Shown: piece after piece, positions 5,986-30,529 of the stretch
Layout of the letters: each line of letters opens with the position of its first letter
How positions within the stretch are numbered: the stretch's first letter is position 1
From: Comamonadaceae bacterium
GTDB taxonomy: Bacteria; Pseudomonadota; Gammaproteobacteria; Burkholderiales; Burkholderiaceae_C
Assembly: GCA_947378275.1 (NCBI GenBank)
Contig: CANCJD010000002.1
Location: 1-41,839 of the forward strand
Direction of reading: 5' to 3'
DNA length: 41,839 nt
The notes under the pieces: generated by a model
What the model was told of the DNA's origin: nothing
Database searches by the model: none
Seen by the model: the letters and a program-made list of their open reading frames with translations, nothing else
Made by a program: the position numbers and the translations under genes

Positions 5986-6021
5986 TGACTGCTCCAGGGA
6001 TTGTTAAGTTATAGGGCTATA

Positions 6022-6038
6022 AGCAAGGCGCGTGCCTA
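6022..6038 (-). promoter_or_regulatory. Candidate sigma-54 (-24/-12) promoter for flgG and downstream genes
   Basis: Reverse complement TAGGCACGCGCCTTGCT: GG-N10-GC, close to YTGGCACG-N4-TTGCW; about 37 bp before the flgG start. Confidence 0.7.
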
Positions 6039-6047
6039 GAAAAACCG

Positions 6048-6844: not shown

Positions 6845-9800
6845 TTATGAGCGCAGGTTGATGATGGCCGAGGTCATCGTCGAACTGGTTTCAATCGCCT
6901 TGGCATTGGCCTGGAAGTTACGCTGGGCGGTGATCAAGTCCACCAGCTCTTGCGTCAAGTCCACGTTGGCACGTTCTGTTGCACCGGCACGCAAGGTACC
7001 GAAACCGGCAGAACCTGCGTTACCCAGTGTGGCCTTGCCCGAGGCAGCCGAAGCCAAGAAGGTGGAGTCACCCATCTGGCGCAAGCCCACGGGACTGGAG
7101 AAGTTGGCGAGCAAAATTTTGGCCAGCGACTTTTGCGTGCCGTTGGAGAACGAGGCGCTGACCAATCCATCATTGCCAATCGTCACACCCACCAGGTCAC
7201 CTTCCGGTGCGCCGTCTTGCGACTGCGACAACACGGCAAAGGGCGATGTGTACTGGGTAGACGCGGAGTAGTTGACGTTGATCGTCAACACACCCTTACC
7301 ACCTGCAAGGTAGACGGGCTCCAATTGCGTGCCTTGCACTGGCGAGACCAATTTACCCGCCGTGCTAAAGGTCAACTCGCCTTTGGTCAGGTAAACCGGT
7401 GACCAGGTGGGCAGGTTCACAAAACCGTCGCCACTCGTTGTCTCATTGCCTTGGCCGTCGATGTATTTGGGCTGGGATACGCCAGAGACGGAATCAGCGT
7501 GTTGCGTGGGCTTGATCCAAGTGGAGTCGGTGCCGCGTGCAGCTTCCACCTGGTCCATACCCCAGTCTGCGCTGCCCGAAATTTTGATGAAGGAGTTGGA
7601 CCCTGTGGTGCCGCTGGTGAAGGTGAAGCGCTTGTTCACGTCATCGTAGGCGACTTTCACACCGTTGACGGTGAGGGGTTGGCCGGTCGGACTGTTGGCG
7701 CCCATGGCGTTGATGCCTTTTTGCAGCTCGGCCTTGAAGGTGTCGAGCGAATAGTCGGGCCGGGGTGGAATCACCACCGTGGCCTTGACGCCGTCGACCG
7801 TCACCACAAAGGAGTTGTTGGTGTTGTCCACCGCAAAGTTGCTGGAGATGTTTTTCAGCGGGGTGGTGCCCACGGCGGTTGCCGGGGTGGACGCAATACC
7901 ACGCAGTGCCACGGCCGAGGTGGTGACCAGGTTGACGGGGGCATCGGTGGCACTGCCGTTGGCGGTAAAGCCAAAGACTTGTTCACCCACGGAGTTCGAC
8001 GCTACGCCCGTGATCGCGATGCTGGACTTGTCGCCGGTGGTACCTGACTGCAGAGTGAACATCTTGTTCACCGAGTCGTAGGTCATTTGCATGCCGTAGC
8101 GCTGCTCGGTGGGCAGGCGAATGGCCAGGCCGTTGGGAATGACCTTGGCGTCATAGTGGCCCGTGGTGGAATCCAGCACGGTCGGTGTGGGAGTCAGCTG
8201 GAACAGGTCGTTCTTGAGAACGGTGTTGGGCGTGCTGAGTTTGATCGTTTGGAGTCCGTCCGTAAATTTGAAGCTCGAGGTGCTGTAGTCGTAGCTGACT
8301 TTGATAGTGTTGGTCGTTTTTGGTGTGGTTGCCGCGTCAATCGGGTTGCTGTCGAGTTGCGCTTGCATAGCTGCAACCATCTGTTCCGTGGTTACTTGCT
8401 TAGGGTTCGCAGGTAGGCCATCTTGTCCCGGTACCAGGTTAATTTGAATAGGGTGTTCCGTGGTGGTCACCGTGGTTGTTCCGGTGGTGGTGTTCAGCCG
8501 GCTGCTGGTTACCTGCAGAGTGCGGCTGTTGGGGTCGGTGAGGTCAAAGTAGGACTCATCGCCAAACTTTTTGTTCAGTTGGTTGGTTACTTCCGCGGCC
8601 ATTTCAGCCCCGTTGATCTTCGAGTCGGCGCCGACCAAATAGCTCAGGTCGACGTTCACGGGGTTGCCGCTGCCGTCGATGTCGACCTTGAACATGGTTT
8701 GCAGGTCTGTCGTGAGCTTGTCGTAATAGGTCACAGCACCCGCTGCGGCCGTTGCCGCTGCCAACTGAACAGCGCTCGGTGACGTGCCGAGCGCGGCAAT
8801 CGCATTGGCCGTGGCCAGCACGTTGGCGGTTGCTGCTTTGGTGGCGTCGGCGATTTGGGCGTCCGTGGGCGTTCCGGTCAGGGCGGCAACGGCGGTGGTG
8901 ATGGCTGCGCTTAGACCTGTCACGGTGCTTGGGTCTGCCATTGCCGCTGCAATGTCCGAATCGCTAGGATAGGTTTTGGCCATCACTGCGGTGGTGGCCG
9001 CGGCAGTAGCAGCGGCAGTGATTGCGGCCTGGGTTCCAACCTGGGGTGTGATGGCCAATGCCGCTGTCACCGCTGCGGTAACCCCGGCTGCGACAGCCTG
9101 CGTGTTTGCGGTGTCATTCATGGTTTTGAAGTTGACACCATTGCTGAAGTCGTACGCCGTAACTGCCGTTCCCTTGATCCCTGCGGGGATGGAATTGCGC
9201 TTGTCGGTCAGGTCATTGAGTGAAAAGAGTTCCGTCTTGGCCGTGGTCAATTCGTCTTTGACCTGGCTGTAGGGCGCGAGCTGACCGTACTGGTTGACAT
9301 AGAGCTTGGAGCCATTGGAGTCCGTGGCTTGTTGCAAGGATGCGTTCACCGCGTCTTCACCCACAAACACGTGCGTTTGCCAGGTGTTGGTAGGGCTGGT
9401 CGAGTCGGCGTTTTTGGTCTTGGTGTAGTACACCGTGGCCAAGTAGCCGTTGCCGCCGGCGTCGTACACGGTAAAGGCGGTGCTCTTGTTGTAGGTAGCA
9501 GGGTTGGTGCGGTTGAAGGCGGCGGTGATCACGCTGGCGTCGGCCGGAAAGTTCAGGCCCAGTGACACTTGCGAGGTTTGCTTGGCTTCGCCCGTGGTTT
9601 TTTGCGGGATGGTCAAGACCACACGGTCGTTCACGTTGGCGCTGCCGGTCGAGTCCACCGTCGCTGCCATCAAGCGCTGGCCCGCCGAGTTGACCACGTT
9701 GTACTGCTCGTTGAGCAAGAACGAGCCGTTGCGGGTGTAGGTTTCTTGCAGGCCATCGGCCGAGCGCATGGGGAAGAAACCGTCACCGGTAACCGCCAAG

Positions 9801-10042
9801 TCCAGCGCGTTGGACGAGAACGAAATATTGCCCTGGCTGAACTCTTGGCTCACCTGTTTCAGCGACACACCTTGACCGACGGTGCTGGAGGCCTTTTGCA
9901 GTGGCGAGGTGGCAAAAATGTCACCGAAGTCAGCGCGTGAGCGCTTGAAGCCGGTGGTGCCCACGTTGGCAATGTTGTTGGCGGTCACGCCGAGCATGGC
10001 GGTGGCAGCGTTCAGGCCGGTCAGAGAGGTATAGAAGGACAT
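6845..10042 (-). CDS. flgE: Flagellar hook protein FlgE (1065 aa, strongly enlarged)
   Basis: MSFYTSLTGLNAATAMLGVTANNIANVGTTGFKRSRADFGDIFA; C-term VDLTQELVDLITAQRNFQANAKAIETSSTMTSAIINLRS. Confidence 0.93.
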   Translation of the reverse strand: MSFYTSLTGLNAATAMLGVTANNIANVGTTGFKRSRADFGDIFATSPLQKASSTVGQGVSLKQVSQEFSQGNISFSSNALDLAVTGDGFFPMRSADGLQETYTRNGSFLLNEQYNVVNSAGQRLMAATVDSTGSANVNDRVVLTIPQKTTGEAKQTSQVSLGLNFPADASVITAAFNRTNPATYNKSTAFTVYDAGGNGYLATVYYTKTKNADSTSPTNTWQTHVFVGEDAVNASLQQATDSNGSKLYVNQYGQLAPYSQVKDELTTAKTELFSLNDLTDKRNSIPAGIKGTAVTAYDFSNGVNFKTMNDTANTQAVAAGVTAAVTAALAITPQVGTQAAITAAATAAATTAVMAKTYPSDSDIAAAMADPSTVTGLSAAITTAVAALTGTPTDAQIADATKAATANVLATANAIAALGTSPSAVQLAAATAAAGAVTYYDKLTTDLQTMFKVDIDGSGNPVNVDLSYLVGADSKINGAEMAAEVTNQLNKKFGDESYFDLTDPNSRTLQVTSSRLNTTTGTTTVTTTEHPIQINLVPGQDGLPANPKQVTTEQMVAAMQAQLDSNPIDAATTPKTTNTIKVSYDYSTSSFKFTDGLQTIKLSTPNTVLKNDLFQLTPTPTVLDSTTGHYDAKVIPNGLAIRLPTEQRYGMQMTYDSVNKMFTLQSGTTGDKSSIAITGVASNSVGEQVFGFTANGSATDAPVNLVTTSAVALRGIASTPATAVGTTPLKNISSNFAVDNTNNSFVVTVDGVKATVVIPPRPDYSLDTFKAELQKGINAMGANSPTGQPLTVNGVKVAYDDVNKRFTFTSGTTGSNSFIKISGSADWGMDQVEAARGTDSTWIKPTQHADSVSGVSQPKYIDGQGNETTSGDGFVNLPTWSPVYLTKGELTFSTAGKLVSPVQGTQLEPVYLAGGKGVLTINVNYSASTQYTSPFAVLSQSQDGAPEGDLVGVTIGNDGLVSASFSNGTQKSLAKILLANFSSPVGLRQMGDSTFLASAASGKATLGNAGSAGFGTLRAGATERANVDLTQELVDLITAQRNFQANAKAIETSSTMTSAIINLRS

Positions 10043-13166: not shown

Positions 13167-13219
13167 CTGCAGTGTCAGGGCCTGCGCCCCTGTCATTTTT
13201 TCAACAGATAAGACCCTTC

Positions 13220-14505: not shown

Positions 14506-14895
14506 TTGAACGACACCGTTGCCTTTGCCGCACAACTGGCCGACCAGCTCTCGCAGATGCTGGAGCAGGAGTTTGAGGCTTTGCGCAAGCAGGAAATCGA
14601 CCAGTTCGAACAGCTCCAGCCGGTAAAAACCGAGCTGCTGGCCGAAATCACCCGCCTGGCGCCCTCAGCGGCCGACATCCAGGTGCTGCCTGAGTGGCAA
14701 GATTTCCGAAACACCATGGTCCATTGCCGCGATCTGCACCGGCGCAATAGCGTGCTGATAGAGCGCAAGCTCGAAGCCATCCGCGGCACCTTGCAAAGCC
14801 TGCGCGTGGACGACGCGGCCAGCCCGGTCGAGGTCTATGACCGGCTCGGCCACATTTCCCGCTTCGGTCGCAATTCCGGTTACAGCGACGCCTGA
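14506..14895 (+). CDS. flgN: Flagellar export chaperone FlgN (TTG start)
   Basis: 129-aa coiled-coil protein after flgM; VLIERKLEAIRGTLQSLR...VEVYDRLGHISRFGRNSGYSDA. Confidence 0.75.
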   Translation: MNDTVAFAAQLADQLSQMLEQEFEALRKQEIDQFEQLQPVKTELLAEITRLAPSAADIQVLPEWQDFRNTMVHCRDLHRRNSVLIERKLEAIRGTLQSLRVDDAASPVEVYDRLGHISRFGRNSGYSDA

Positions 14896-15200
14896 ATTTC
14901 CTCGGGCGCGTCCCCATCCGGCGACGCAGTCGCCTTTTCGTCGCCGGGGCGCATGCCCTTGAGCCAATACACCCAAGACAGAATTACGGCTACGGCGGTA
15001 AATAGCTCTGGCGGTACCTCTTGGTCCACGTCCAGGCGGCTGAGCAGCGCCAGCAGCGCCGGGTCTTGCGTGATGTAAACCCCGTGCGCTCTGGCTTCGG
15101 CAATCATTTCCAGCGCCAAATCGTCTTCCGCCTTGGCCGTGACCATGGGCGTGGCGTAGTTGCCGTACTCCAGGGCGATGGCTTGGCGGCGCTGGCTCAT
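14880..15200 (-). CDS. FlhB C-terminal-domain-like protein (FhlB/FlhX-type)
   Basis: AIALEYGNYATPMVTAKAEDDLALEMIAEARAHGVYITQDPALLALLSRLDVDQEVPPELFTAVAVILSWVYWLKG matches the FlhB cytoplasmic tail. Confidence 0.85.
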   Translation of the reverse strand: MSQRRQAIALEYGNYATPMVTAKAEDDLALEMIAEARAHGVYITQDPALLALLSRLDVDQEVPPELFTAVAVILSWVYWLKGMRPGDEKATASPDGDAPEEIQASL

Positions 15201-17003: not shown

Positions 17004-18194
17004 CTAATGCGAGGCCTCGGCCGACCAGGCGGTCCAGGTGTTGCTGACGTTTTGGGCGTTGCCGCTTACGGGGCGCAACTGGGCGTAGTACTCGCCCACC
17101 GATTGCACCCGGGCCAGCACCGTTTGCGCTGCCGCGCCGGGCTCCAAGACGCGCTGCACGCCGTTTTGGTCGTGCGCGATCACCCATTCGTCCCCCACGC
17201 GCACCCCCGCGGCGCTGCCGGCATTGATACGTAGCTGCGCACCTGCGGCCTGGGTCACATCGGCCATGACGGTTTGGCAGGCCAATTGGCGTTGCAAGGC
17301 CAGGCTCCAGGCCTGTATTTGTTTGGCCACCTGGGCCTGTGCTGCCACGCTCAGGCCGGGGCTGGCCCAGTTGTCGTCGGTGATAGTCAGGTTCAGGGTG
17401 GTGGTGGACTGCAGCGCGGGTGTGGGCTGTTTGCGTGCGGTCAGCGACATGCGCACCTGCACTTGCAGCACGGCGGGCTCTAAGACGGGTCCGATGGGAG
17501 GCTGCACTGTGGGGCGCCCGGACTTGGCCTGCGGTGGCAGGGGAACATCCACGGCGGGGCTGCTTGCGCCGGGGCCCATGGCGAGCAACTGAAACTGGAG
17601 TTGCCAAGGCATTTCGTCCTGACTGGAGCCCAGCAGCGCCTGCTGGTAGCTCGAGCGCCCCTCCGTGCGGGCGCGCTCCACCAGTCGCCACTGCGCTGTT
17701 GCTGCGCCGGCTTGCTGCAATTGCGCCAGCACGCTGGCTTGCAATGCGTCCAAGACGGGCGCGTTGTCGGCGCTCAAGGGGGTTTGGGTCGTCCAGTTCC
17801 AGCCCATGACGTGTTGCAGGCGTCCGCCCACAGGTGCCTTACACGCAGCCGCCGCTTTACCGTTGCCGGTGGGGTCGGATCCGTCAGCGCTTTGCCACTG
17901 CAGTTTGGCCGTCGCTTCGCCCTGGGCGTCGGCGCCGTAGGCCAGTACGCGCACGCCGCGCACTTTCATGCCCGAGCGAAAGGCGCTGAGCTCTTGCAGC
18001 GCACCATTGCCGTCAATCCATTGGGTGGCCGATACCTGGGTCGGGCCCTCGAGTGCGGCTTGCACCAGGCCTTTGCGGATGGCCGCGAGTTTTTCATCCG
18101 GCGAAAGCGTGTCCGCCCACAGCGCGCCCGCGCTCAACAGCAGCGCTGCGGCAGCCGTGGCACGCCAGGCTTGAGGGGGGGCAAAACGCGTCAT
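17004..18194 (-). CDS. flgT: FlgT-like flagellar assembly / H-ring protein
   Basis: Signal peptide, then NLTITDDNWASPGLSVAAQAQVAKQIQAW...INAGSAAGVRVGDEWVIAHD...VLARVQSVGEYYAQLRPVSG, similar to the FlgT middle/C-terminal region; adjacent to flgP-like. Confidence 0.65.
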   Translation of the reverse strand: MTRFAPPQAWRATAAAALLLSAGALWADTLSPDEKLAAIRKGLVQAALEGPTQVSATQWIDGNGALQELSAFRSGMKVRGVRVLAYGADAQGEATAKLQWQSADGSDPTGNGKAAAACKAPVGGRLQHVMGWNWTTQTPLSADNAPVLDALQASVLAQLQQAGAATAQWRLVERARTEGRSSYQQALLGSSQDEMPWQLQFQLLAMGPGASSPAVDVPLPPQAKSGRPTVQPPIGPVLEPAVLQVQVRMSLTARKQPTPALQSTTTLNLTITDDNWASPGLSVAAQAQVAKQIQAWSLALQRQLACQTVMADVTQAAGAQLRINAGSAAGVRVGDEWVIAHDQNGVQRVLEPGAAAQTVLARVQSVGEYYAQLRPVSGNAQNVSNTWTAWSAEASH

Positions 18195-18200
18195 GGTGGT

Positions 18201-18740
18201 TTATTTGTTTTTGGATGCCAGTTGGCCGAGGTACAGCATGCGCAGGTCTTGCACCGTCGCTTTGTCCAAGGACAAGGTGGTCTCGTAGGTGTCGTCGCCC
18301 GAGGGGGTGATGCTCACCAGCGTGGCGCCATAAATCACGCCTTCAACCCGGCTGCGGAAGGTGTCGTTTTGCACCACCATGTCGGCCACGGTCGCGGTGG
18401 CGTCCATGCGCAGTCCGTAGACCTGTTCGGTCAGCGAGCGGTAGGCGTCAAGCTTGGCCGCGCGGATCGCCAGCAGGCGTTGCTGCGCGGGCAGGCGGTG
18501 GTTTTGCACGCTGATGACAGCGTAGCCCGTGGCGGTGAGTGACTCGCGTCGCTCCACCAGCGGCAGACTGGCCATGGGAATTTCAACGTTGGCTGCGGCC
18601 GCGCCAGTTGTGCTGGCTGCAGCCGTTGTAGCCGTTGCGGGTGCCGCGCCAAAGCCTGACAGCGTGGGCAGTGCCTGGCAGGCGCAAAGCAGGGCCACAG
18701 GCAGGCAAAGTGCCAGTTTGAGGGGGAGGATGCGATTCAT
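18201..18740 (-). CDS. flgP: FlgP/LPP20-like outer-membrane lipoprotein
   Basis: MNRILPLKLALCLPVALLCAC lipobox; TGYAVISVQNHRLPAQQRLLAIRAAKLDAYRSLTEQVYGLRMDATATVADMVVQNDTFRSRVEGVIYGA. Confidence 0.75.
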   Translation of the reverse strand: MNRILPLKLALCLPVALLCACQALPTLSGFGAAPATATTAAASTTGAAAANVEIPMASLPLVERRESLTATGYAVISVQNHRLPAQQRLLAIRAAKLDAYRSLTEQVYGLRMDATATVADMVVQNDTFRSRVEGVIYGATLVSITPSGDDTYETTLSLDKATVQDLRMLYLGQLASKNK

Positions 18741-18769
18741 AGCGGTGTCCTTAGAGGTAGTCCATAGCA

Positions 18770-18796
18770 GTATCGGCAGCAAGCGCGAAAGCTTGA
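18770..18796 (-). promoter_or_regulatory. Candidate sigma-28 promoter for the flgP-flgT-LysM-fliK2-fhlB unit
   Basis: Reverse complement TCAAGCTT-N11-GCCGATAC versus TAAAGTTT-N11-GCCGATAA; 30 bp before the flgP start. Confidence 0.7.
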
Positions 18797-18881: not shown

Positions 18882-21518
18882 TCAGGCGGCGCGGCGCAGG
18901 TCTGCGGGCGCGGTTGCGTCAGGGGCAGGCGCCGCTTCAGGCGCTGAGCCCAGCGCAGGCGTCGCACTCGGGGCCTGGCCGGCAGCGGCCTGGTACCAGC
19001 GCAAGGCCAGCGCATAGTTTTGCGCCGTGCCTTGGCCGTTGGCATACATCGAGCCCAGGTTGAACTGCGCTGCGCTGTCGCCCAGTTCAGCAGCTTGCAA
19101 ATAGCAGTGCAGGGCCTGGGCGGCATCTGCGGCCACGCCGTCCCCCAAAAAGTACTTGCGCCCGAGCTGGGCCCATGCGTTGGCGTCGCTCAATGCGCTG
19201 GCCTGTTGCAGCAGCGCCAGGGCCTGGGCCGGGTCGGCCTCGCAGCCCTCGCCCGTACTGAGTAGGTAAGCGCGCTGCACCATGGCGGGTGCATAGCCCA
19301 GGCTTGCGGCGCGCGCAAAGTGGGCCACGGCCTCGTGCGGCGAAGCCGCTACCGCCTGCCCGTGAAGGCGCAACTGGCCCCAGTTGAAGTGGGCCAGGGC
19401 GTCGTCTTGGTCGGCAGCAGCTTGCAAGTGTTCCAGCGCCTGGCGCGTGGCTGCGCCGTCCGTGGCGCTGGCGGGGTTTTGCAGCGCAAGAGCGGCCAAA
19501 TTGTTATGGGCCTGCGCAATACCGGCTTGCGCGGCGCGCTCAAAGCACCGAGCGGCCAAAGCCAAGTCGCGCGCCGTGCCCAGGCCTTGCGCATGCAGCA
19601 GGCCCAGATTGAAGGCGGCGCTGGCGTCGCCCTGGTCGGCGGCTTGTTGGTAGGCCAGTAACTGGCGGCCATAGTCGGGCGCGCTTTGCAGGCCCTGGGC
19701 TTGCAGCAAGCGCAATTGGTACTGGGCGGCGGGATGGTCTTGGGCGGCGGCCTTTTGCAGCCAGAGCAGGGCGCCCATTTCGTCGGTCGGCACGTCGCCA
19801 CCGGTGTGCAACAGCATGCCTGCGGCATATTGCGCCAGGGCGTCGCCTTGTTCGGCCGCTTGCAGGTAGCAGGCCAGCGCCGCGCTCAGGTCTTGCGCTA
19901 CGCCTACGCCCTGGGCGTGCATCACGCCCAGGTTGTGCTGGGCCCAGGCGTTGCCCAGGTCGGCGCTGGCCTGGTAGTAGGAGAGTGCGCTATCGCGCGG
20001 CGAGGGCGCAGCATCGTTGGCGTTGGCGTTGGCGGCGTCGGCCACAAAGGCCAGACGCGGTGTGTTTTGCGGCTGCAGCGATGGGTCTTGCTGGCAGCCC
20101 AGGTTAAAGAGGGCGTCGCTGTAGCCGTGTTCGGCGGCACTGTGCAGCCAGTCCAGGGCTTGCGCAGTGTCCTCAGGGCTAGAAGCGGGTGCGCCCCAGA
20201 CATGGGCCATCGCAGCATTGAACTGGGCCAGGGTATTGCCTTGCTTGGCGGCCAACACAAAGTAGTGGCGCGCGCGCGCCAGATCGGCTGCGGCGCCCTG
20301 GCCTTGCAGGTGCATCAGGCCCAGGTTGTACTGGGCCAGCGCGTCGCCCTGGTCGGCGGCAAGCTGGTACCACTGGCGCGCCAGCGTGAAATCTTTGCTC
20401 ACGCCCAGGCCGCCCTGGTACATCACGCCCAGGTTGCACTGCGCGCGCGCGTCGCCCTGGTCAGCAGCGTGGTGAAACCACTGGCGCGCCTGGGCATTGT
20501 TTTGCGCCACGCCCTGGCCTGCGCTGTACATGGCGCCGAGCTGGAACTGGGCAATGGCCAGGCCCCGGTCGGCAGCCATTTGGTACCACTGCAGGGCTTC
20601 GGCATAGTCTTGTGCCACGCCAAAGCCGTTGGCGCTGAGCGTGCCCAGGTTGAACTGGGCCGGCGCGTGGCCCAGGGCTGCCGCCGTACGGTAGTGGTTG
20701 AGTGCGCGGTCAAAGTCCGCACCTGCGCCGTGGTCTTGCGCGTACCAGACGCCCAGGTTGTAGTGCGCGTCGCCGTGGCCTTGGGCTGCGGCCAGGCCAA
20801 AGTAGTGCAGCGCGCCTTCGTCGTCGGTAATGCCGCCCTGGCCTTGCGAGAACATGAGCGCCAGGTTGTACTGGGCCGGGGCGTCGCCCTGTTCGGCGGC
20901 GAGCTGGTACCACTTGCGCGCCAGTATCGGGTCGTGTTCGGCACCTTTGGGGTCGGCGAGCAAGAGGCCGAGGTTGAACTGGGCGTAGGTGTGGCCTTGC
21001 GCGGCGGCCGATTCAAACCATTTGCGCGCGCTGGCGCCGTCGTGGGCCACGCCTTCACCGGCGGCGTACATGCAAGCCAGGTTGAACTGTGCGGTGGCGT
21101 GGCCTTGCACGGCGGCGCGCTCAAACCAGACGGCAGCTTGGGCCTGGTCTTGTGCCACGCCCTGGCCGTTGGCAAACATAAAGGCCAGGTTGGTCTGCAC
21201 ATCGGGCAGACCCTGGGCGGCGGCCAATTGGTACCACTCCAGTGCCTGGGCATAGTCTTGGGCCACGCCCTGGCCGTTGGCGTACATAAAGCCCAGGTTG
21301 TACTGGGCGGCAGCGTAGTCTTGTGCGGCGGCCAGGCGGTACCACTTCAGGGCTTCGGCGTAGTCTTGCTCCACGCCCTGGCCGTTGGCGTACATAAAGC
21401 CGAGGTTGTTTTGCGCCGCCGCGTAGTCGAGCGAGGCCAGCGGGCGCGAGATGCGCAGCGCATTGGCGTAGTCGCCCCGGCGGTAGGCGGCGTCGGCGTC
21501 GGCCAGCAGATTGTTCAA
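18882..21518 (-). CDS. Large Sel1-like repeat protein (878 aa, TTG start)
   Basis: Roughly two dozen 36-aa repeats such as AAQYNLGFMYANGQGVAQDYAQALEWYQLAAAQG. Confidence 0.92.
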   Translation of the reverse strand: MNNLLADADAAYRRGDYANALRISRPLASLDYAAAQNNLGFMYANGQGVEQDYAEALKWYRLAAAQDYAAAQYNLGFMYANGQGVAQDYAQALEWYQLAAAQGLPDVQTNLAFMFANGQGVAQDQAQAAVWFERAAVQGHATAQFNLACMYAAGEGVAHDGASARKWFESAAAQGHTYAQFNLGLLLADPKGAEHDPILARKWYQLAAEQGDAPAQYNLALMFSQGQGGITDDEGALHYFGLAAAQGHGDAHYNLGVWYAQDHGAGADFDRALNHYRTAAALGHAPAQFNLGTLSANGFGVAQDYAEALQWYQMAADRGLAIAQFQLGAMYSAGQGVAQNNAQARQWFHHAADQGDARAQCNLGVMYQGGLGVSKDFTLARQWYQLAADQGDALAQYNLGLMHLQGQGAAADLARARHYFVLAAKQGNTLAQFNAAMAHVWGAPASSPEDTAQALDWLHSAAEHGYSDALFNLGCQQDPSLQPQNTPRLAFVADAANANANDAAPSPRDSALSYYQASADLGNAWAQHNLGVMHAQGVGVAQDLSAALACYLQAAEQGDALAQYAAGMLLHTGGDVPTDEMGALLWLQKAAAQDHPAAQYQLRLLQAQGLQSAPDYGRQLLAYQQAADQGDASAAFNLGLLHAQGLGTARDLALAARCFERAAQAGIAQAHNNLAALALQNPASATDGAATRQALEHLQAAADQDDALAHFNWGQLRLHGQAVAASPHEAVAHFARAASLGYAPAMVQRAYLLSTGEGCEADPAQALALLQQASALSDANAWAQLGRKYFLGDGVAADAAQALHCYLQAAELGDSAAQFNLGSMYANGQGTAQNYALALRWYQAAAGQAPSATPALGSAPEAAPAPDATAPADLRRAA
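21263..21401. repeat. Representative 108-bp periodic DNA repeats inside the Sel1 gene
   Basis: ccacgccctggccgttggcgtacataaagcc occurs at 21263-21293 and 21371-21401, exactly 108 bp apart. Confidence 0.85.
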
Positions 21519-21530
21519 AGCAGGCCTGGC

Positions 21531-21746
21531 TTATTGCTGCGGTTCACGCAGTTGCGCCAGCGCGTGGTGTTGTACCGGGTGGGCTTGGTGTTCGACGGCG
21601 TAGAGCTTTTGACCATGGGGCACATGCGCCTGGTGGGTAACGATGGGCGCGGTATGCGACACCAGGCCCGTGCGGGGCGCACGCAGGCCGTGGGCGGCAG
21701 CTTCGAGGTGCTGGGCGCCGCTGGGGCGGTGTTTCACATCATTCAT
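21531..21746 (-). CDS. Candidate 71-aa leader ORF in frame with, and just upstream of, the large Sel1 ORF
   Basis: ATG...TAA ORF with GC-rich third positions, AGGAC before the ATG, and a sigma-54-like element upstream; stop is 12 bp from the Sel1 start. Confidence 0.35.
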   Translation of the reverse strand: MNDVKHRPSGAQHLEAAAHGLRAPRTGLVSHTAPIVTHQAHVPHGQKLYAVEHQAHPVQHHALAQLREPQQ

Positions 21747-21830
21747 GGGCAGGTCCTGGTGCGGTCGGGGCGGCGGGTGCGGAGTTCGAATGGTCTGAAT
21801 TCTGACGATTTTCGCGGTATTTTTGGATTA

Positions 21831-21846
21831 CGCAAACTGTGTGCCA
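21831..21846 (-). promoter_or_regulatory. Candidate sigma-54 promoter for the leader ORF and large Sel1 gene
   Basis: Reverse complement TGGCACACAGTTTGCG: GG-N10-GC, in an AT-richer intergenic stretch. Confidence 0.6.
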
Positions 21847-21872
21847 CTTTTCTTTTGGGCTTGCATGCGGCG

Positions 21873-23306
21873 TCAGGCCGCAGCCATCGCGCCCAGCAGG
21901 CCGTGCACCTCGCTCTGGGACAGCGTGGCCACGCCAAAGTGCTGGTGCTCGCACAGCAGGGGCACAAACCAGTGTTGGGCAAAGGCGCTAAAGAGTTCGG
22001 CGTTCCAGGGCAGCTGCTTTTGGCTGCTCAGGGTGGCCCAGTTCCAGCGCGCAGCGTGCGGGGCAATCCAGGCCGCGCTCCAGGGCAGGTGTGGGTTGGC
22101 GCTCAGGCGCTCCCAGTCCCAGGCAAAGTCGGGGTGCAGCAAAAGGGACGCGCTCCAAGGCAGTTGCGCACTGCTGGAGAGGCCCGCCCAGTCCCAGTCG
22201 GCGGCAAATTGCGCGATCAGCGCTTCGCTCCAGGGCAGGCCGGGATTCCAGCTCAGGCCGTCCCAGTCCCAGTGGTTTTGGTAGCGCGCAATCAGGTCGA
22301 CAGACCAGGGCAGGGCCGGGTTGGCGCTCAGGGCGTCCCAATCCCAGTCGTCTGCCGGTGTGGCGGCCAGCAGGGCGTCCGTCCAGGGTACGGCGGTGTT
22401 TTTGCACAGGCCCGCGTGGCTCCAGCGGCTGCTCCAGCTTTGCAGCAAGGCGTCGTTCATCGGCAGGTGGGGGTTGGCGCTTAGCGCCGGCCAGTCCCAG
22501 TGTGCGGCGTAGCGGGCAATCAGCGCTTCACTCCAGGGCAAGTGGGCGGCGCTGCTCAGTGCTTTCCAGTCCCAGCGCTGCACATGGGCGTCGAGCAGGC
22601 CGTCGCTGTAGCGCAGGCTGGCGTTGCCGCTGAGCCAGGGCCAGTTCCAGTGGTCGGCAAAGGCCGTGACCAGCGCCGCGTCCAGGGGCAAGGACACATT
22701 GGCGCTCAGCCCGGTCCAGTCCCAGCGCTCGGTGTAGGCGCGCAGAACCGCGGCCGTCCAGGGCACGCCGGTGTTCCAGCTCAGGCCGGTCCAGTCCCAG
22801 CGGTGGGCGTTGCTGTGGATGAAGGCCGCCGTCCAGGGCAGGTCGGCGTTGCTGCTGAGCACCGCCCAGTCCCAGCGGTAGGCGTTGGCGTCTAACAGCT
22901 CGGCGCTCCAGGGTAGCGCCGGGTTGGCGCTCAGGGCACGCCAGTTCCAGCGCGCTGCGTGCTGCTCCAGGAGCGCTTCGCTCCACGGCAGGCTGGGGTT
23001 TTTGCTCAAAGCGTCCCAGTCCCAGGCGTCAGCGTGCTGGGCCACGAGCTCGGGCGTCCAGGCCAGCGCGCGGCTGGCGCTCAGGCGTTTCCAGTCCCAC
23101 AGGGAAGCAAAGTCTGCGAGTTCGGCGCCAGCGAGCGGGTAATGGGTTTGCAGGCACCCCAGAAACAGCGCCGGGTGCGCGCGGAAAAACGCCAGCGTGT
23201 GCGCTTCTTGGATCAGCGCCAGCGCGCCCGAGGCGGCGTCCAGCCGCTGCTGCGTGGCCAGCGTGAGGGCCTGCGGCGCCAGGGCTTGGACGGTGAGCTG
23301 GTTCAT
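21873..23306 (-). CDS. WDW-repeat protein: 15 tandem ~25-aa repeats, consensus WDWxxLSxNPxLPWSxxLIxxxxxx
   Basis: Repeats visible by eye, e.g. WDWDALSANPALPWSVDLIARYQNH / WDWDGLSWNPGLPWSEALIAQFAAD; 75-bp DNA period; start MNQLTVQALAPQ overlaps the upstream stop (ATGA). Confidence 0.85.
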   Translation of the reverse strand: MNQLTVQALAPQALTLATQQRLDAASGALALIQEAHTLAFFRAHPALFLGCLQTHYPLAGAELADFASLWDWKRLSASRALAWTPELVAQHADAWDWDALSKNPSLPWSEALLEQHAARWNWRALSANPALPWSAELLDANAYRWDWAVLSSNADLPWTAAFIHSNAHRWDWTGLSWNTGVPWTAAVLRAYTERWDWTGLSANVSLPLDAALVTAFADHWNWPWLSGNASLRYSDGLLDAHVQRWDWKALSSAAHLPWSEALIARYAAHWDWPALSANPHLPMNDALLQSWSSRWSHAGLCKNTAVPWTDALLAATPADDWDWDALSANPALPWSVDLIARYQNHWDWDGLSWNPGLPWSEALIAQFAADWDWAGLSSSAQLPWSASLLLHPDFAWDWERLSANPHLPWSAAWIAPHAARWNWATLSSQKQLPWNAELFSAFAQHWFVPLLCEHQHFGVATLSQSEVHGLLGAMAAA

Positions 23307-24583
23307 GGCGTGGGGCGGTCGTTTGGCGTGGCCAAGTCGGCCTTGCTTGGCGTGCTGCTGGCGCCCAGCGCCTGCGCGTAGCGCTGCATTTCGGCGTGCA
23401 GGTAGCTGGCTTGCTGGCTGAACCACAGGGTCCAGTTGCTTTGGGTGCTCAGGGTTTGCCAGGTGGCGCTGCGCAAAATGCCGGCGCGCTCACGCTGGTG
23501 CTGGGCCAGGCGTTCTTTGAGTGCGGCGGCTTGCTGCGCCGGGCTGCGCCGCTCGCCTGACTTGCTTGCACCCGTGCCAGGGATGGACTTGGGCGCGAGC
23601 AGCACTTGCTGCTCTAGCACTTGCAGGGCCGCAAAGTCGTTGTTTTCGTATCCTGCCTGCAGGCGCTGGAACAGGGCTTGGGCCTCGGCTTTGTCGTCGT
23701 CTTCCACCCGGTCCGGGTGCAGGCGCATGGCGAGCTTGCGGTAGAGCTGCTTCATCTGGGCCTGGGCTTGCGGATCCAGCGCCGGGGTGGGGATCAGTTT
23801 GCCGTCCTGGGCTTGGGTGTAGCGCTCAAACTGGTCTTGCGCCTGTTCGGCCTGGGTGCGGGTCTCGTCGCTGCCCGACTGCGCATGCAGGGCTTGCAGG
23901 TGCTGGCGCTTGGCGTCCAGGCAGTCGCGCAGCAAGGGGCCGATGGCCGCGTCCTGGGCCTGGTCAAACGCGTTGATGGTGCGGTGCATCTCGGCCAAAT
24001 CGGCTTGCAAGGCCAGCGCGTGCGCTTGCAGCAAAGCGGTTTGCCAGGGCGGGGCCCATTGCTGGGGGTCGTCAAAGGTGGCCAGCGCGGTGGCGGCTGT
24101 GGCAGGCGCTGCGGACAAGCCTTCGGGTGCAGCAACTTGCGCCTCGGCGTGTTGGACGGCGAGCTGGCTCAGGCCGCGCGCGCAGTCGTCGGCCAGGCTG
24201 GCGCTGGTTTGCAGCAGCACGCCGGCCGATTGCGCGTCGGGCAGCACTTGCAGGCGCGCCAAGTCGCCACTGAGCACGACAAAGCCGTCCACCACGCAGA
24301 CCGAGGTGTGCAAGCGCGGCGCTCCGGGGCGCAGCCGGTGCAGCGTGGCGCCCAAGGCACTCAGCCGTTCCCAGGCAATGCCCGGCGCCTGATCTTGGGC
24401 CTCGCCCGACACCACCAGCGTGAGCGCCACGCCTTTGCGGCAGCAGCCCAGCAGCAACTCAAACAGGGGCCGGCCGCAGGGCCCGGCCAAGGCGCATAGC
24501 ACCTGCTGGCGGGCGCTGCCGAGCCGCTGCGCCACCACGGTGTGGGCGTCAGCAAAGTGCAGCGAATCAGAAACGTCGGTCAT
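23303..24583 (-). CDS. PLD-like N-terminal domain plus J-domain protein
   Basis: J-domain MKQLYRKLAMRLHPDRVEDDDKAEAQALFQRLQAGYE (HPD intact); N-terminal RLHTSVCVVDGFVVLSGDL resembles a degenerate PLD HxK region. Confidence 0.7.
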   Translation of the reverse strand: MTDVSDSLHFADAHTVVAQRLGSARQQVLCALAGPCGRPLFELLLGCCRKGVALTLVVSGEAQDQAPGIAWERLSALGATLHRLRPGAPRLHTSVCVVDGFVVLSGDLARLQVLPDAQSAGVLLQTSASLADDCARGLSQLAVQHAEAQVAAPEGLSAAPATAATALATFDDPQQWAPPWQTALLQAHALALQADLAEMHRTINAFDQAQDAAIGPLLRDCLDAKRQHLQALHAQSGSDETRTQAEQAQDQFERYTQAQDGKLIPTPALDPQAQAQMKQLYRKLAMRLHPDRVEDDDKAEAQALFQRLQAGYENNDFAALQVLEQQVLLAPKSIPGTGASKSGERRSPAQQAAALKERLAQHQRERAGILRSATWQTLSTQSNWTLWFSQQASYLHAEMQRYAQALGASSTPSKADLATPNDRPTP

Positions 24584-24684
24584 GGCGGGTGGGTCGGAGC
24601 GGGCGGCAAAGGCTAGGGGAGGGCGGGCGCAGGGCGTTCAAGCGCGGGCGCTTGCGGCAGTGGCCTACGTTGCGGCCACAGCCC

Positions 24685-26010
24685 TTAGTCAAAGTCCTTG
24701 AACTGGTTGTTCTGGCAGGCGCGCGCCATGTCTTGGGCCTGGGCGATTTGGGCGGGCGTCATTTGCTGGGTGACAAAGTCGCGCCCGCTGGCGGCTGCCG
24801 CGTGGCCGCCCACGGCGCCCAGGTTGAACCACATATGGGCACGTACAAAGTCTTGCAGCACGCCCGCGCCATTGGCATACAGCCAGCCCAGCGCGGCCTG
24901 GCCGTCGGCGTGGCCTTGCGCCGCAGCCAGGCGGTAGCAGGCCAGGGCCTGCGCGTAATGGGGGGGCGTGCTGGCCTGGTGCAAGGCGCCCAGGTCGTAC
25001 TGCGCTTGGGCGTCGCCCTGGTCGGCGGCCAGTTGCAGCCACTGCATCGCCACTTCGGCGCTGGCAATCGTGCCCTGGCCGTTGGCAATCATCACGCCCA
25101 GGTTGTACTGCGCCAGCGCGTCACCCTGGTCGGCGGCAAGCTGGTACCAGGCCAGGGCCACCGACGCGTCTTGTTCGATGTCCTGGCCGGTGGCGTACAT
25201 CAGGCCCAGGTTGTACTGGGCGGCGGCGTCGCCTTGGTTGGCTGCGGCCAAATACCAGTGCAGCGCTTGCTTGGGGTCTTTGGGCGTGCCCTGGCCCAGG
25301 CTGTACATCACGCCCAGGTTGTACTGGGCGGCGGCGTCACCGGCGTTGGCAGCGCGGCTGTACCACTGCAGAGCGCGATCGGGGTCCAGCGGGCCGTCCT
25401 GGCCACTGGAAAACATGAAGCCCAAATTGAACTGCGCATGGACATGGCCTTGTTCGGCCGCCAGCGTGTACCAGTGCTCGGCTTGGGCCGGGTCGCGCGG
25501 CACGCCGTGGCCGTTGGCGTACATCACGCCCAGTCCGTATTGCGCAGCTGGGTCGCCGCTGGCCGCACCGGTTTCGTAGCAGTTCAAGGCCTGGCTGAAG
25601 TCTTGGTCCACCCCCTGACCGTTGGCGTACATCACGCCCAGGTTGCGTTGTGCGGTGGTGTCGCCCTGCGCGGCGGCGGCGCCATACCAGTGCAGGGCTT
25701 GGGCAAAGTCCACTTCGCCACCCTGGCCGTTGGCGTACAGCGCTGCCAGGTTGGACTGGGCGTAGGCCAGCCCCTGGGCGGCGGCGGCGCCATACCACTT
25801 GCGCGCTTGCACAAAATCTTGCGCCACGCCCTGGCCGTGGGCGTACATCACTGCCAGGTTGGACTGCGCCTGCGCCGCGCCGCGCTCAGCCGCTTGCTGG
25901 TAACACTGCAAGGCTTGGGCGAAATCCTGTGGCACGCCCTGGCCGTTGGCATACATCAGGCCCAGGTTGTTGAGCGCTGCGAGTTGAAGATCGGGGGCGT
26001 TGTCGGTCAC
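24685..26010 (-). CDS. Second Sel1-like repeat protein (441 aa, GTG start)
   Basis: About 11 Sel1 repeats, e.g. AAQYNLGVMYSLGQGTPKDPKQALHWYLAAANQGD. Confidence 0.92.
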   Translation of the reverse strand: MTDNAPDLQLAALNNLGLMYANGQGVPQDFAQALQCYQQAAERGAAQAQSNLAVMYAHGQGVAQDFVQARKWYGAAAAQGLAYAQSNLAALYANGQGGEVDFAQALHWYGAAAAQGDTTAQRNLGVMYANGQGVDQDFSQALNCYETGAASGDPAAQYGLGVMYANGHGVPRDPAQAEHWYTLAAEQGHVHAQFNLGFMFSSGQDGPLDPDRALQWYSRAANAGDAAAQYNLGVMYSLGQGTPKDPKQALHWYLAAANQGDAAAQYNLGLMYATGQDIEQDASVALAWYQLAADQGDALAQYNLGVMIANGQGTIASAEVAMQWLQLAADQGDAQAQYDLGALHQASTPPHYAQALACYRLAAAQGHADGQAALGWLYANGAGVLQDFVRAHMWFNLGAVGGHAAAASGRDFVTQQMTPAQIAQAQDMARACQNNQFKDFD

Positions 26011-26316
26011 GGGCTCAGGCTTGGGTGTGGCGTGGAATTGCGGCAGCGCACAGGCGCGACCGTGGCGAAAACGCCCTGCGCCATTATGCCGTTTGCACCC
26101 GGATTTAGGTCAAATCCACATGAAGAAACTAAATTACATGCTTGTGGTGTTTTTCACGAAAAAATTGAAAACATCTGTGTACTGTCTGAAAAACGACACT
26201 TTTTATGACCATAATGGCCGCGTCTGCTTGTCTGTCCCTGTGGCGCACCAGCCGGCCACCTCGCCTCTCGCCTGCGGCTTGTCGTCCGCCAACCCTTTTT
26301 TGCACCGATCAACACC

Positions 26317-27459
26317 TTGTCCACGTCCAGAGTTCCGCTGCGATTTATCGGTGAAAGCGACGCCATCCGCGCCATACGCGATTTGCTGCCCGTGGTGGCG
26401 GCGTCGAGTTCGACCGTCCTCATCACGGGCGAGAGCGGCACGGGCAAGGAAATTGTGGCGCGTTCGCTGCACGATTTGTCGCACCGCGCGGGCGCCAACT
26501 TTGTGCCGATCAACTGCGCGGCCATCCCCAAAGACCTGATCGAGAGCGAACTCTTTGGCCACCGCAAGGGCGCCTTTACCGGGGCCGTGACCGACCGGGT
26601 AGGGCGCTTTGAGCTGGCGCAAAACGGTTCGATCTTTCTGGACGAAATTGGCGACTTGCCGCTGGAGCTGCAAGTCAAGCTGCTGCGCGTACTGCAAGAG
26701 CGCGTGGTGGACCCGGTCGGCAGTACCAAACCCGTCCCTGTGGACGTGCGAGTGATCGCTGCCACCCACCGCGACCTTGAGGCCGAAATTGCCGCTGGGC
26801 GCTTTCGCGAAGATTTGTACTACCGCTTGAACGTGTTGCCTCTGAACATGCCGCCGCTGCGCGAGCGCGCCACCGACGTGCCGCTGCTGCTGAGCTTTTT
26901 TGCCAAACAGCATGCCGCCACCGGCGAAAAACCCATTACCTTTGGTCCGGACTTTGCCTACGCTTTGCAGGCCTACCCTTGGCCGGGCAATGTGCGCGAG
27001 CTGTCCAACCTGATTGACCGCTTTAGCACCTTGTTTTCGGGCCAGTGCCTGCAGCTCAAAACCTTTTCTTCTTCGCTCTTGCCCAAGGGCCTGGCAGCGT
27101 TCAAGACCCAGGCCGAGGCGGGCGAATTGCCCTTTATTGACCCGTCGATGCAAAGCACGGCCGGGGCCTGGGTGGATTCGCCGGGCACGGGCGGCATGTT
27201 CGACGACAGCGTGGACGACGAATCGGGCGAAGACGCACCCAATGCGGTGGAGCAGATGACTTTTATGTCACAAGGCCTGCCCGTGTTGCCGCCCGAAGGC
27301 TTGTCGCTCAAGCACCGCTTGGCTGAAATTGAGCGCGATCTGATCTCGCAGGCGCTCAGTCGCACCAATGGCAATGTGTCGCAAACGGCGCGCATTTTGA
27401 ACGTGCAGCGCACCACGCTGATCGAAAAAATCCAGAAATTCGGCCTGCGCGAGGGCTAG
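26317..27459 (+). CDS. FleQ/FlrA-like sigma-54-dependent activator lacking an N-terminal regulatory domain (TTG start)
   Basis: Walker [45 protein letters not shown], Fis-type [30 protein letters not shown]. Confidence 0.9.
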
Positions 27460-27501: not shown

Positions 27502-28599
27502 TCAGGGGTTTTCTTTGCCTTGGGGCTGGGTGCGCGGATATTGCACCAGCGTTTCCTTGGGCTTAGGTGGCGGCGCCGGTGGCGCAGGCGGTGCCACCAC
27601 CACCGGTTTGGCTGCGGCCTCGGCTGCTTTTTGCTGGCGCAGGGCGGCTTCGATCTCACGTCGCACGGCGGCCGGGTCGGGCCGCGGTGCCGCGGGCGCT
27701 GCGCGCACTTGGGAACTGAGGGCGTTCAAGGCCGTGGACTGGCTTTGGATCTTGGCGTCGAGTGCCTGGATCAGTTTGGCCAGGTCGGGTGCGCCTTTGC
27801 TGTCGGCGGGCTTGGACGCTGCCTGGGCAGCGGCTTGCGCCATGGCGCTCACTACCTCGTCCAAGCGGGTGTCAAGCTTGGCCTGGCCGCCCACGATGGT
27901 GTCCTGGCGTGAGGAAATGTCCCGCAGGGTTTCGCCCGCACCCGTGATCAGCTCCATGGCCTCGTTCATGGCCACAATGCGTTTGCCCACGGCCAACAGC
28001 ATTTCGTCGGCCTGGGAAATGCGCGACTGCAGGCGATACGACATGATGCCAAACAAGGCCATGGATGTCAGCATCAAGGCGCCAAAGGTGGCCAGTACCA
28101 CGATGCCGTTAAGACGCTGTTTGCCGTGTGACTCCACCATGGCGGCAGACGCGGTGTGCATTTCGCCCGTCACGTGCTGCATGTCGGTGGTCACACTGTG
28201 CATCTCCGCAGCAGCCTTGGCGGCCATGCCTGCAGCGCGGTTGGCCAACTCGGCTGAGTCCAGCATGGCCGAGCGCATGGCAAGCATGTCGGCGTCGTCG
28301 GCGACTTGCGTTTCGCCCTGCGCTTCATGGTGCGCAACTGGTTCGCCGTGTTCGCCATGCACATCGTGTTCGCCAGCAGGTGCATCGGCCGCGCTGATGA
28401 AGCCCTGGGACGCAGGGCCGTCGACTGGCAGGTCAAACTGCGCATCGACCGCATGATCGGCGTCTACTGCGGTAGTTCCCGCCATGGCATCGGTCGTGGT
28501 GGCGGAAGAAGTCCCTTGCGGCGCGGGCGCGGCAACGCCCGAGATGGCTTCAATGGCCTGGGCCTCTTCGGCAGAAAGTTTGGATGTGGTGTCAGTCAT
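27502..28599 (-). CDS. Uncharacterised single-TM coiled-coil protein (365 aa)
   Basis: One TM segment (LNGIVVLATFGALMLTSMALFGIMSY) followed by coiled-coil and Ala/Pro-rich tail; last gene in the fliK...flhB direction. Confidence 0.75.
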   Translation of the reverse strand: MTDTTSKLSAEEAQAIEAISGVAAPAPQGTSSATTTDAMAGTTAVDADHAVDAQFDLPVDGPASQGFISAADAPAGEHDVHGEHGEPVAHHEAQGETQVADDADMLAMRSAMLDSAELANRAAGMAAKAAAEMHSVTTDMQHVTGEMHTASAAMVESHGKQRLNGIVVLATFGALMLTSMALFGIMSYRLQSRISQADEMLLAVGKRIVAMNEAMELITGAGETLRDISSRQDTIVGGQAKLDTRLDEVVSAMAQAAAQAASKPADSKGAPDLAKLIQALDAKIQSQSTALNALSSQVRAAPAAPRPDPAAVRREIEAALRQQKAAEAAAKPVVVAPPAPPAPPPKPKETLVQYPRTQPQGKENP

Positions 28600-28629: not shown

Positions 28630-29073
28630 CTAGGTGGGGTCTTGCAGCATGGACTGCAGGGATTCAAGTTGCGTACGCACGGCGTCGTTCTCAACCTTGA
28701 GGTGAATCAGGCGGGCCGGGAAATTCATCTCGGGCATGTCGGTGTCATACGCCGCTTGTTCGGCCGCTTGCGGGTCTTGTGCGGCAGACGCAGCGGTGGG
28801 CCCATTGGCAGCGGCGCCTGGGACCAGGGGCTTAGAGGCGCGTTCAATGTTGTCGCTGCGCGGTACTTTGACCAGGTTGTCGGCCACGGCCGTGCTGGTG
28901 AGAAGCACCTGGTTGGCATCGACCGCGATTTCTTGGTCTTGCGCAAAGTGGTCTTGTTCGTTGCGGCGCACTTCGGTTCCGGCTTGGCCGGACCGACTTT
29001 TGGCAACGTGGCTTCCCTCGGGCATTTCGACCGAGTGGGGCACGCTGCTGGGGATGAATTGGGGTTCGCTCAT
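28630..29073 (-). CDS. Uncharacterised small protein (147 aa), C-terminal helix FPARLIHLKVENDAVRTQLESLQSML
   Basis: Open frame filling the space between two collinear genes. Confidence 0.65.
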   Translation of the reverse strand: MSEPQFIPSSVPHSVEMPEGSHVAKSRSGQAGTEVRRNEQDHFAQDQEIAVDANQVLLTSTAVADNLVKVPRSDNIERASKPLVPGAAANGPTAASAAQDPQAAEQAAYDTDMPEMNFPARLIHLKVENDAVRTQLESLQSMLQDPT

Positions 29074-29077: not shown

Positions 29078-30529
29078 TCAGGGGTTGCGTCGGGGCAGCT
29101 CTGGGGTGCCGGTCTCGGGCGCGAAATGGTCTTTCATTGAGCGCGCCGAGCGGATTTGCGGGTCTTTGGGAATGCCACTGCCTGCGGCAAAGCTGTTGGC
29201 TTCGGCGAGCGAGGCAAAGGGGCCTGACACCACGGCGAATTGCACTGCGGCCTGGCCGTTGAGGTAGGTGGCCACAATGCGTGCCCGGCGCAGGTTGGCG
29301 TGGGCTTGCAGCCACATCGTGGCTTCACCGTAGCTCGGCACGATGGTGTGCTGAACCATGAACGTGCCCGGCGGCATTTGCTTCACCCACGACTGACCAA
29401 CTTGCGCTTGCGCCGGGGTGGAGATGATTTCTTCTACCTCGGTGGGCGGCGCGGCGCTGATGCTGCGCTGAGGGCTGGCCACTACCAGCTCTGCCGCTTT
29501 GGCCGGCACTGCTGCGGGGGTCATGCCTGCGCCCAGGGCGTTGGTAGCAGAGGCCGGCGCCATCGCCGATGCGGGGTTGGCTGCAGGCAGTGCACCACTG
29601 GCGTTTGGCAAGGGGGCGGCCTCCGGGCTGGGCGCACTGGCCGCAGGCAGCGGTTCGGGCGCTTTGCGCGGGCCTATCCCCAGCAGCGCTGCGGTTTGTT
29701 GGGTGCCGTAAAGCGTCAACACGCCCAACGCACAGGCGATCAGCAAGGCGGTGATGCCTGCGAGCCACAGCAGGGTCTTGCGCACGCTGCCCTTGGTTTT
29801 TTGCGGTTTGGGCGTTGCTTCTGGGGCCGCAAGCGGCGCGGGGGGCGCAGGCGACTCGGCGCTGACAGCGGCCGCAGGTGCAGGGCGGGGTGGCGCGGCC
29901 ACCACCGCTGTAGTGGCTGCATGCCAGGGGGTGATCTTTTTTAGCAAGGCGCTGACCGCGCCTTCACGCCCTTGGGCGCGGGCTTGTTCGAGCAGTGCCT
30001 GGGCCTGTTCGTCGCTGGGCGGCTCAATCTCCCAGTTCAGGATGCGTCGGCCAAACGAGGCCAGCAAACGTTGTTTTTTGCTGGCCGTGGTTAAGAGCAT
30101 GACCACGCGGATATTGGCCGCCGGGAAGTGCTGCACCAGGCGCGCGAGCAGTTGGATCTCGTGGTCGGGCAGGGCGGAGGCGTCGTGCACGATCCAGATC
30201 TTGGGGGGCGCCACCGGCGCTTTGGTGCCCATGGCGTCTTCGATGGAATAGGCTTGCAACACCTCGTTAAAGCGCGCAATCAGCGCTTCGGCGCTGGCGG
30301 GGAAATACACCTCCAGGCCCATGTGCGGCGCGGCTTCGCGCAGGCGGGCCACCAGTAGCTTGCCGTAGTGGTCCAGGATGGCGTCGTGGCTGCTGACCAC
30401 CGACAGGCTCATGTTGTCGTCGATCAGGGCGGCGACATAGCCTTCTAGGCGCATGCGGTCGGCCACCCGGAAAAACAGGGGCTGCACGCCGGTGATGGCT
30501 TCGTCGCCGTAAGAGTGGAAGTCGTTCAT
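29078..30529 (-). CDS. DamX-like protein: degenerate ATPase-like N-domain, TM, Ala/Pro linker, SPOR-like C-domain
   Basis: IWIVHDASALPDHEIQLLARLVQHFP (Walker B-like region, altered); TM LLWLAGITALLIACALGVLTLYG; C-term QAAVQFAVVSGPFASLAEANSFAAGSGIPKDPQIRSARSM (SPOR-like); start overlaps flhB stop. Confidence 0.7.
   Translation of the reverse strand: MNDFHSYGDEAITGVQPLFFRVADRMRLEGYVAALIDDNMSLSVVSSHDAILDHYGKLLVARLREAAPHMGLEVYFPASAEALIARFNEVLQAYSIEDAMGTKAPVAPPKIWIVHDASALPDHEIQLLARLVQHFPAANIRVVMLLTTASKKQRLLASFGRRILNWEIEPPSDEQAQALLEQARAQGREGAVSALLKKITPWHAATTAVVAAPPRPAPAAAVSAESPAPPAPLAAPEATPKPQKTKGSVRKTLLWLAGITALLIACALGVLTLYGTQQTAALLGIGPRKAPEPLPAASAPSPEAAPLPNASGALPAANPASAMAPASATNALGAGMTPAAVPAKAAELVVASPQRSISAAPPTEVEEIISTPAQAQVGQSWVKQMPPGTFMVQHTIVPSYGEATMWLQAHANLRRARIVATYLNGQAAVQFAVVSGPFASLAEANSFAAGSGIPKDPQIRSARSMKDHFAPETGTPELPRRNP

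Follow-up and report, generated by a model that had tools for sequence, protein, structure and literature searches.

Most known additions to flagellar motors are periplasmic rings. Among the closest described counterparts of the locus considered here are MotX, the Sel1-repeat T-ring protein of Vibrio, and PflA and PflB, the tetratricopeptide repeat (TPR) motor scaffolds of Campylobacter, all of them helical-repeat proteins of polar flagella with FlgP/FlgT-type rings; where repeat proteins are encoded close to a flagellar cluster, a scaffold role in the motor is common (PMC11870540). DnaK, DnaJ and GrpE reportedly act positively on flhDC (PMC2782266), and in the FAM83 family a catalytically dead phospholipase D (PLD) domain serves as a scaffold, most members having lost the catalytic His and kept the Asp and acting as anchors with no PLD activity (PMC6008594). 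Here, a four-gene cassette was analyzed in contig CANCJD010000002.1 of a Comamonadaceae bacterium (GenBank assembly GCA_947378275.1), whose 41,839 nucleotides form the window, so that the window ends are the contig ends. The cassette encodes two Sel1-repeat proteins (Sel1A and Sel1B), a tryptophan-rich repeat protein (WDW) and a protein joining a PLD-like domain to a J-domain (PLD/J), and it occupies a fixed place in a flagellar cluster with which it is inherited. MotX, PflA and PflB are periplasmic or membrane proteins, whereas the cassette proteins are predicted to be cytoplasmic and are much larger. We give roughly even odds (about 0.5) to the reading that the cassette is one functional unit, co-opted into a flagellar operon, whose products form a cytoplasmic flagellar co-chaperone complex. 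No paper on such a flagellar cassette was found in the literature. The cassette genes are as follows, with confidence in the structural model given as the predicted local distance difference test (pLDDT) score.

18882-21518, minus strand: Sel1A, 878 residues with at least 19 Sel1 repeats (Pfam Sel1, E 3e-139); flgP is the next gene downstream.
21873-23306, minus strand: WDW, 477 residues with 16 repeats of 25 residues; ATGA overlap with the PLD/J stop.
23303-24583, minus strand: PLD/J, 426 residues (DnaJ, E 3.7e-6; AlphaFold2 pLDDT 85; Foldseek matches to Nuc, NucT and Zucchini).
Within PLD/J: residues 1-145, degenerate single-HKD PLD-like domain; 179-261, long helix/coiled coil; 271-313, J-like helices II-III with HPD; then C-terminal helices.
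24685-26010, minus strand: Sel1B, a Sel1-repeat solenoid of 441 residues encoded by the first gene of the operon (Pfam Sel1, E 7.8e-99).

These coordinates agree with a sequence-only reading of the window, which had described four collinear minus-strand genes, three of them encoding little but repeats (Sel1A, Sel1B and WDW), and a J-domain protein whose stop overlaps the WDW start; the ATGA overlap is real and lies at 23303-23306. That reading had set the genes among flagellar genes and next to a "FleQ-like" activator. The surroundings are indeed a polar-type flagellar cluster (flgB-K, flgP/flgT, fliK, fliL, fliM, fliR, flhB, flhA and flhF), while the label for the activator is loose, because a domain search of this 380-residue protein identified AAA+, lid and Fis-type helix-turn-helix domains and no FleQ or receiver domain.

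The arrangement is recurrent. Among about 85,000 genomes scanned, 42 flagellar loci were recovered, and, as far as their contigs reach, all 42 carry Sel1B, PLD/J, WDW and Sel1A in the same order, on the same strand and in the same place between the activator and flgP-flgT. The full order is fliR, flhB, three uncharacterized genes, the activator on the opposite strand, Sel1B, PLD/J, WDW, Sel1A, flgP and flgT. Among 60 relatives, WDW and PLD/J adjoin each other in every genome that holds both. The recurrence loci are titled Comamonadaceae, Rhodoferax or uncultured betaproteobacteria and come mostly from freshwater metagenome-assembled genomes (MAGs). Apparent absences of PLD/J or Sel1B in L070, L072 and L088 proved to be annotation artefacts. 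One 99%-complete MAG (G004) holds two complete versions of the cluster (L041 and L042), each with a cassette and with WDW proteins 87% and 72% identical to that of the window; this may reflect duplication, transfer or the co-binning of two species.

To follow gain and loss, congeneric genomes were sampled, with presence of the cluster called by an activator match at E < 1e-110. The cassette is found in 13 of 16 congeners with this flagellar cluster. G017 and G027 lack all four genes: their contigs run without a break from the activator straight into flgP, and neither genome contains WDW or Sel1B; G036 was excluded from the cassette-less count, as its contig stops at the activator. The cassette is missing from the same flagellar cluster in three related genera, and flgP adjoins the activator in the cassette-less loci L150/L151 and L169-L175. 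A tree of FlhB, FliR, the activator and FlgP (42 taxa, rooted on the cassette-less related genera) grouped all cassette-bearing clusters with an ultrafast bootstrap of 98, and the cassette-less pair was nested within them. On this tree, the simplest history is a single gain and, later, a single loss of the whole cassette. The cassette proteins diverge in step with FlhB (r 0.90-0.95) and FlgT (r 0.87-0.97), as judged by the correlation of pairwise distances. The ratios of nonsynonymous to synonymous substitution rates (dN/dS), at 0.05-0.07 for Sel1B, 0.13-0.15 for Sel1A, 0.14-0.18 for WDW and 0.23-0.28 for PLD/J, indicate purifying selection on all four genes. The recurrent co-occurrence that the sequence-only reading had named as the sign of a system is therefore present, with neither random placement nor a failure to occur together, and its "accessory island" is a four-gene unit; acquired a single time and passed on together with the flagellar cluster rather than sporadic, this unit is better termed a co-opted operon cassette.

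The flagellar PLD/J proteins have lost catalytic residues of the PLD domain and kept the HPD motif of the J-domain. In the window copy, the PLD domain matches Pfam weakly (PLDc_2, E 0.065, against E 2.8e-18 for a stand-alone copy), and the fold is recovered in the AlphaFold model, where a PLD fold resembling that of Nuc is combined with a pair of long helices and with J-like helices; Foldseek aligned it to Nuc (1byr) with E 1e-5 and a template modeling score of 0.74 over the target. The catalytic HxK(x4)D motif is absent from the window protein, which reads LHTSVCVVD with Ser in place of Lys. In flagellar copies Lys is retained in 0/39, His in 16/39 and Asp in 39/39, whereas H, K and D are all intact in the 16 stand-alone copies aligned. 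The HPD motif (H289, P290, D291) is invariant in 55 PLD/J sequences, flagellar and stand-alone alike, suggesting real Hsp70 co-chaperone activity. The J-domain scores 27.4 bits against a Pfam cut-off of 27.8 and covers profile positions 14-51 of 63; it shares with DnaJ and class C J-domain proteins the YRKLAM-x-HPD core of helices II-III, but helix I is unmatched, the G/F and zinc-finger domains were not found, and a pseudo-PLD domain is fused to it. Judged by its residues, the flagellar PLD domain has the pattern of an enzyme turned scaffold. FAM83 proteins (DUF1669/SACK1, vertebrates) likewise have a single PLD-like domain with the catalytic residues gone and the Asp kept, but they are not a homologous system, anchor CK1 kinases and carry no J-domain; stand-alone PLD/J gives a weak Pfam SACK1 match (E 3e-4).

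Unrelated bacteria (Gammaproteobacteria, Bacteroidota and a few Betaproteobacteria) also carry WDW and PLD/J as a pair, without Sel1 or flagellar neighbors. In these free-standing pairs (Chromatiaceae, Competibacter, Volucribacter, Moraxellaceae, Bacteroidota and others), both proteins, their order and their adjacency or overlap are as in the cassette, as are the PLD-coiled coil-J architecture and the 25-residue W repeats. They differ from it in an intact PLD motif (HHKFCVID...GSYN) and in the absence of neighboring Sel1 or flagellar genes. No published description of such pairs was found in the literature. Searches of plasmids and phages with the stand-alone pair gave no record matching both proteins, the matches being mainly to the PLD domain over about one quarter of the query or to WDW-like proteins alone. 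At L111, Sel1B, PLD/J and WDW (2541-6434) lie beside an oxidoreductase-like gene, with Sel1B on the opposite strand and a half-decayed PLD motif (LQQRFCLID...GSFSW), in a genome (G723) that has no close orthologue of the flagellar activator; this arrangement possibly represents an intermediate before entry into the flagellar cluster.

The repeat of WDW reads W-D-W-x-x-L-S-x-N-x-x-L-P-W and occurs in 16 units spaced by 25 residues (once by 26), giving 47 Trp in the 477 residues. WDW matched no Pfam, NCBIfam or PADLOC family. Its predicted model (pLDDT 92.7) is an all-helical continuous solenoid with two short helices per repeat, for which no structural match was found in the PDB (best E 2.3). 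Among viral predicted structures (BFVD), the fold matches giant-virus proteins, entomopoxvirus "tryptophan repeat" proteins and proteins of Bacillus phage G; the match to entomopoxvirus MSV205 reaches E 2e-17, both structures being predicted. The entomopoxvirus tryptophan-repeat family shares the predicted fold of WDW, with BFVD E values down to about 1e-17 for named members, but the viral proteins are only about 15-25% identical to WDW at the fold level, stand in a viral context and have no established function. A tblastn search of phage records returned no matches. Additional proteins with WDW repeats are encoded at L094, L097, L110, L113, L099, L115, L117 and L131, in Bacteroidota, Chromatiaceae and Pseudomonas; some of them stand in tandem and others lack a PLD/J partner. 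They form a large bacterial family, of which the two members searched had no Pfam match.

Both Sel1 proteins belong to a family defined by a tandem unit of 36 residues, Sel1A scoring 448.9 bits and Sel1B 321.1 bits against a Pfam PF08238 gathering score of 30.7, and they give the only Sel1 matches in the source MAG (70% complete). The start codon of Sel1A is kept among orthologues. Sel1B has an orthologue in 13/13 cassette-bearing congeners and is conserved at the level of the sigma-54 activator. Hydropathy analysis revealed no signal peptide or membrane segment in Sel1A, Sel1B, WDW or PLD/J; the first 40 residues of Sel1B reach a maximal Kyte-Doolittle value of 0.55. Sel1B matches MotX chains weakly. 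An identity of the Sel1 proteins with MotX or the T-ring was rejected, given scores of 120.4 and 81.2 bits against the 330-bit cut-off of the MotX model NF047621 and the lack of an export signal. Matches of the Sel1 proteins to the MerG, AlgK, ExoR and PtuA models were attributed to generic Sel1/TPR similarity.

The cassette is flanked by the following features.

26177-26200, minus strand: conserved dyad box AGTGTCGTTTTTCAGACAGTACAC, a candidate operator, from alignments of the activator/Sel1B intergenic region.
26317-27459, plus strand: divergent sigma-54-dependent activator, 380 residues (Sigma54_activat, E 6e-71; HTH_8, E 5e-14).
18201-18782, minus strand: flgP, an LPP20-type lipoprotein gene directly downstream of Sel1A (Pfam LPP20, E 9e-8).
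17004-18194, minus strand: flgT-like gene downstream of flgP (FlgT_C, E 0.007, weak), identical in position in all loci.

Alignments showed that the sequence upstream of Sel1B holds an almost invariant box, AGTGTC-N8-GACAGTACAC, which includes a TGTC/GACA dyad. The exact 23-base pattern was present in 26 of the loci fetched, some of which overlap within one genome, always in the activator intergenic region, and the activator would bind there. Among these loci are the cassette-less L150/L151, in which the box lies upstream of flgP; since box and region are shared with cassette-less flgP, the cassette is placed between flgP and its control region. A convincing -24/-12 sigma-54 element (TGGTACGCAAACTGCA) is conserved in one sister clade about 70 bp upstream of Sel1B, whereas the clade of the window keeps only GGCATAAT and the upstream box; the sigma-54 scan score in the window is at background, and the promoter there may be of this or another class. 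A partial box copy, TGTCATTTTTTCAACA, lies at 13191-13206 just upstream of flgA, recurs there in relatives and is possibly a second site of the same regulator.

The activator is a marker of this type of flagellar cluster. Between it and flhB lie three uncharacterized genes (27502-28599, 28630-29073 and 29078-30529), which are as constant in this cluster type as the cassette and are present in cassette-less genomes too; they matched no Pfam family, and the last has a weak SrfA-family NCBIfam match. FlgE (6845-10042) has 1065 residues, more than twice the usual size, and about 990-1330 in related genera. An open reading frame of about 100 residues lies downstream of the FliK-like gene at 14880-15200, where the frame that relatives have is similar to a portion of FlhB (27-39% identity) and is perhaps an FlhX-like paralogue.

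The linkage of the cassette to the flagellar genes is shown, and the cassette is very probably a cytoplasmic helper of this particular flagellum. An ancestor of these Comamonadaceae gained it once, into an already established flagellar cluster, and insertion between the promoter region and flgP made its genes promoter-proximal in the flgP-flgT operon. The core pair of PLD/J and WDW would derive from the widespread free-standing two-gene module with its Nuc-type single-HKD PLD. On recruitment, the PLD domain lost its catalytic His and Lys and would have become a FAM83-like pseudo-enzyme scaffold, the J-domain retained HPD, and two Sel1 scaffolds would have been added. We infer a cytoplasmic complex in which Sel1A, Sel1B and the WDW solenoid keep hold of a client from the flagellum and the J-domain brings DnaK to it. 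Candidate clients are export substrates, subunits of the export apparatus or C-ring, and FlhF, and the complex would serve to assemble this polar flagellum or to control its quality. In its most specific form, this would be an undescribed flagellar sub-machine, a cytoplasmic co-chaperone scaffold domesticated from a free-standing PLD/J and tryptophan-repeat module, whose PLD is catalytically dead and which serves one flagellar system by way of DnaK; we put this forward tentatively, at somewhat less than even odds. The scaffold or chaperone role in flagellar assembly that the sequence-only reading had suggested remains the best reading. It is favored by the lost PLD residues, the invariant HPD, the lack of signal peptides and the regulatory region held in common, the function itself being proposed from these features.

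Several observations weigh against a co-chaperone complex. Two congeners and three related genera keep the same flagellar genes without the cassette, which is therefore not essential for building such a flagellum. The giant FlgE is a tempting client, but at about 990-1330 residues it is found in cassette-less outgroup genera too, and it was rejected as the specific client that would explain the presence of the cassette. The J-domain is short, comprising helices II-III, and falls just below the Pfam cut-off, and Hsp70 binding is not common to all J-like domains. PLD/J also evolves fast (dN/dS 0.23-0.28, identity 32-90%), and nearly all genomes are MAGs, whose motility is presumed.

Some of the same evidence fits a structural part of the motor, in which Sel1A, Sel1B, WDW and the dead PLD/J would form a ring or collar, either lasting or transient, at the polar motor's base, a cytoplasmic counterpart of the PflA/PflB or MotX scaffolds with the J-domain merely an interaction module. 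The three large solenoids share an operon with FlgP and FlgT, whose Vibrio and Campylobacter relatives form motor rings, repeat proteins in such neighborhoods are often scaffolds (PMC11870540), and there is the weak MotX similarity of Sel1B. We consider this role unlikely, given that HPD is invariant in 55/55 PLD/J proteins, a sign of genuine Hsp70 co-chaperone activity, and that MotX, PflA and PflB are periplasmic whereas the cassette proteins lack signal sequences. A regulatory device, in which the complex would control flagellar number or timing by sequestering or maturing either FlhF/FlhG or the divergent sigma-54 activator, would suit the control region common to cassette and activator, the conservation of Sel1B at the rate of the activator and the ability of J-proteins to remodel regulators; with activator and box unchanged in the cassette-less L150 and L151, it appears improbable.

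The defence role raised by the sequence-only reading, here a PLD-nuclease/J system lodged in the flagellar operon that would guard against stress or against phages that depend on the flagellum, draws on the stand-alone pairs, which are sporadic across phyla, have an intact catalytic motif and contain a PLD domain weakly similar to DrmC and other PLD-domain defence proteins in PADLOC. It is disfavored, and we regard it as very improbable, because the catalytic Lys is gone in 39/39 flagellar copies, the window WDW and PLD/J match no PADLOC family at E 0.1, and inheritance is vertical, with a fixed place, purifying selection and no turnover. Finally, a mobile PLD/J-WDW pair might have been trapped in the operon together with the Sel1 genes as a functionless hitch-hiker, and its loss in one lineage does show it to be dispensable there. 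Purifying selection (dN/dS 0.05-0.28 in every cassette gene) essentially refutes this, and 42 loci keep an intact cassette even where protein identity drops to about 32-40%.

The addition of lineage-specific parts is a route by which flagellar motors diversify, and for this cassette living genomes offer a complete before-and-after record, with the cluster lacking it in outgroup genera, carrying it, and having lost it secondarily. The free-standing, ancestor-type module with its intact enzyme completes that record and makes the recruitment of a chaperone-scaffold module directly testable. In addition, a high-confidence WDW solenoid with no PDB match is linked to the tryptophan-repeat proteins of viruses, and a large bacterial WDW family gains a genomic partner in PLD/J.

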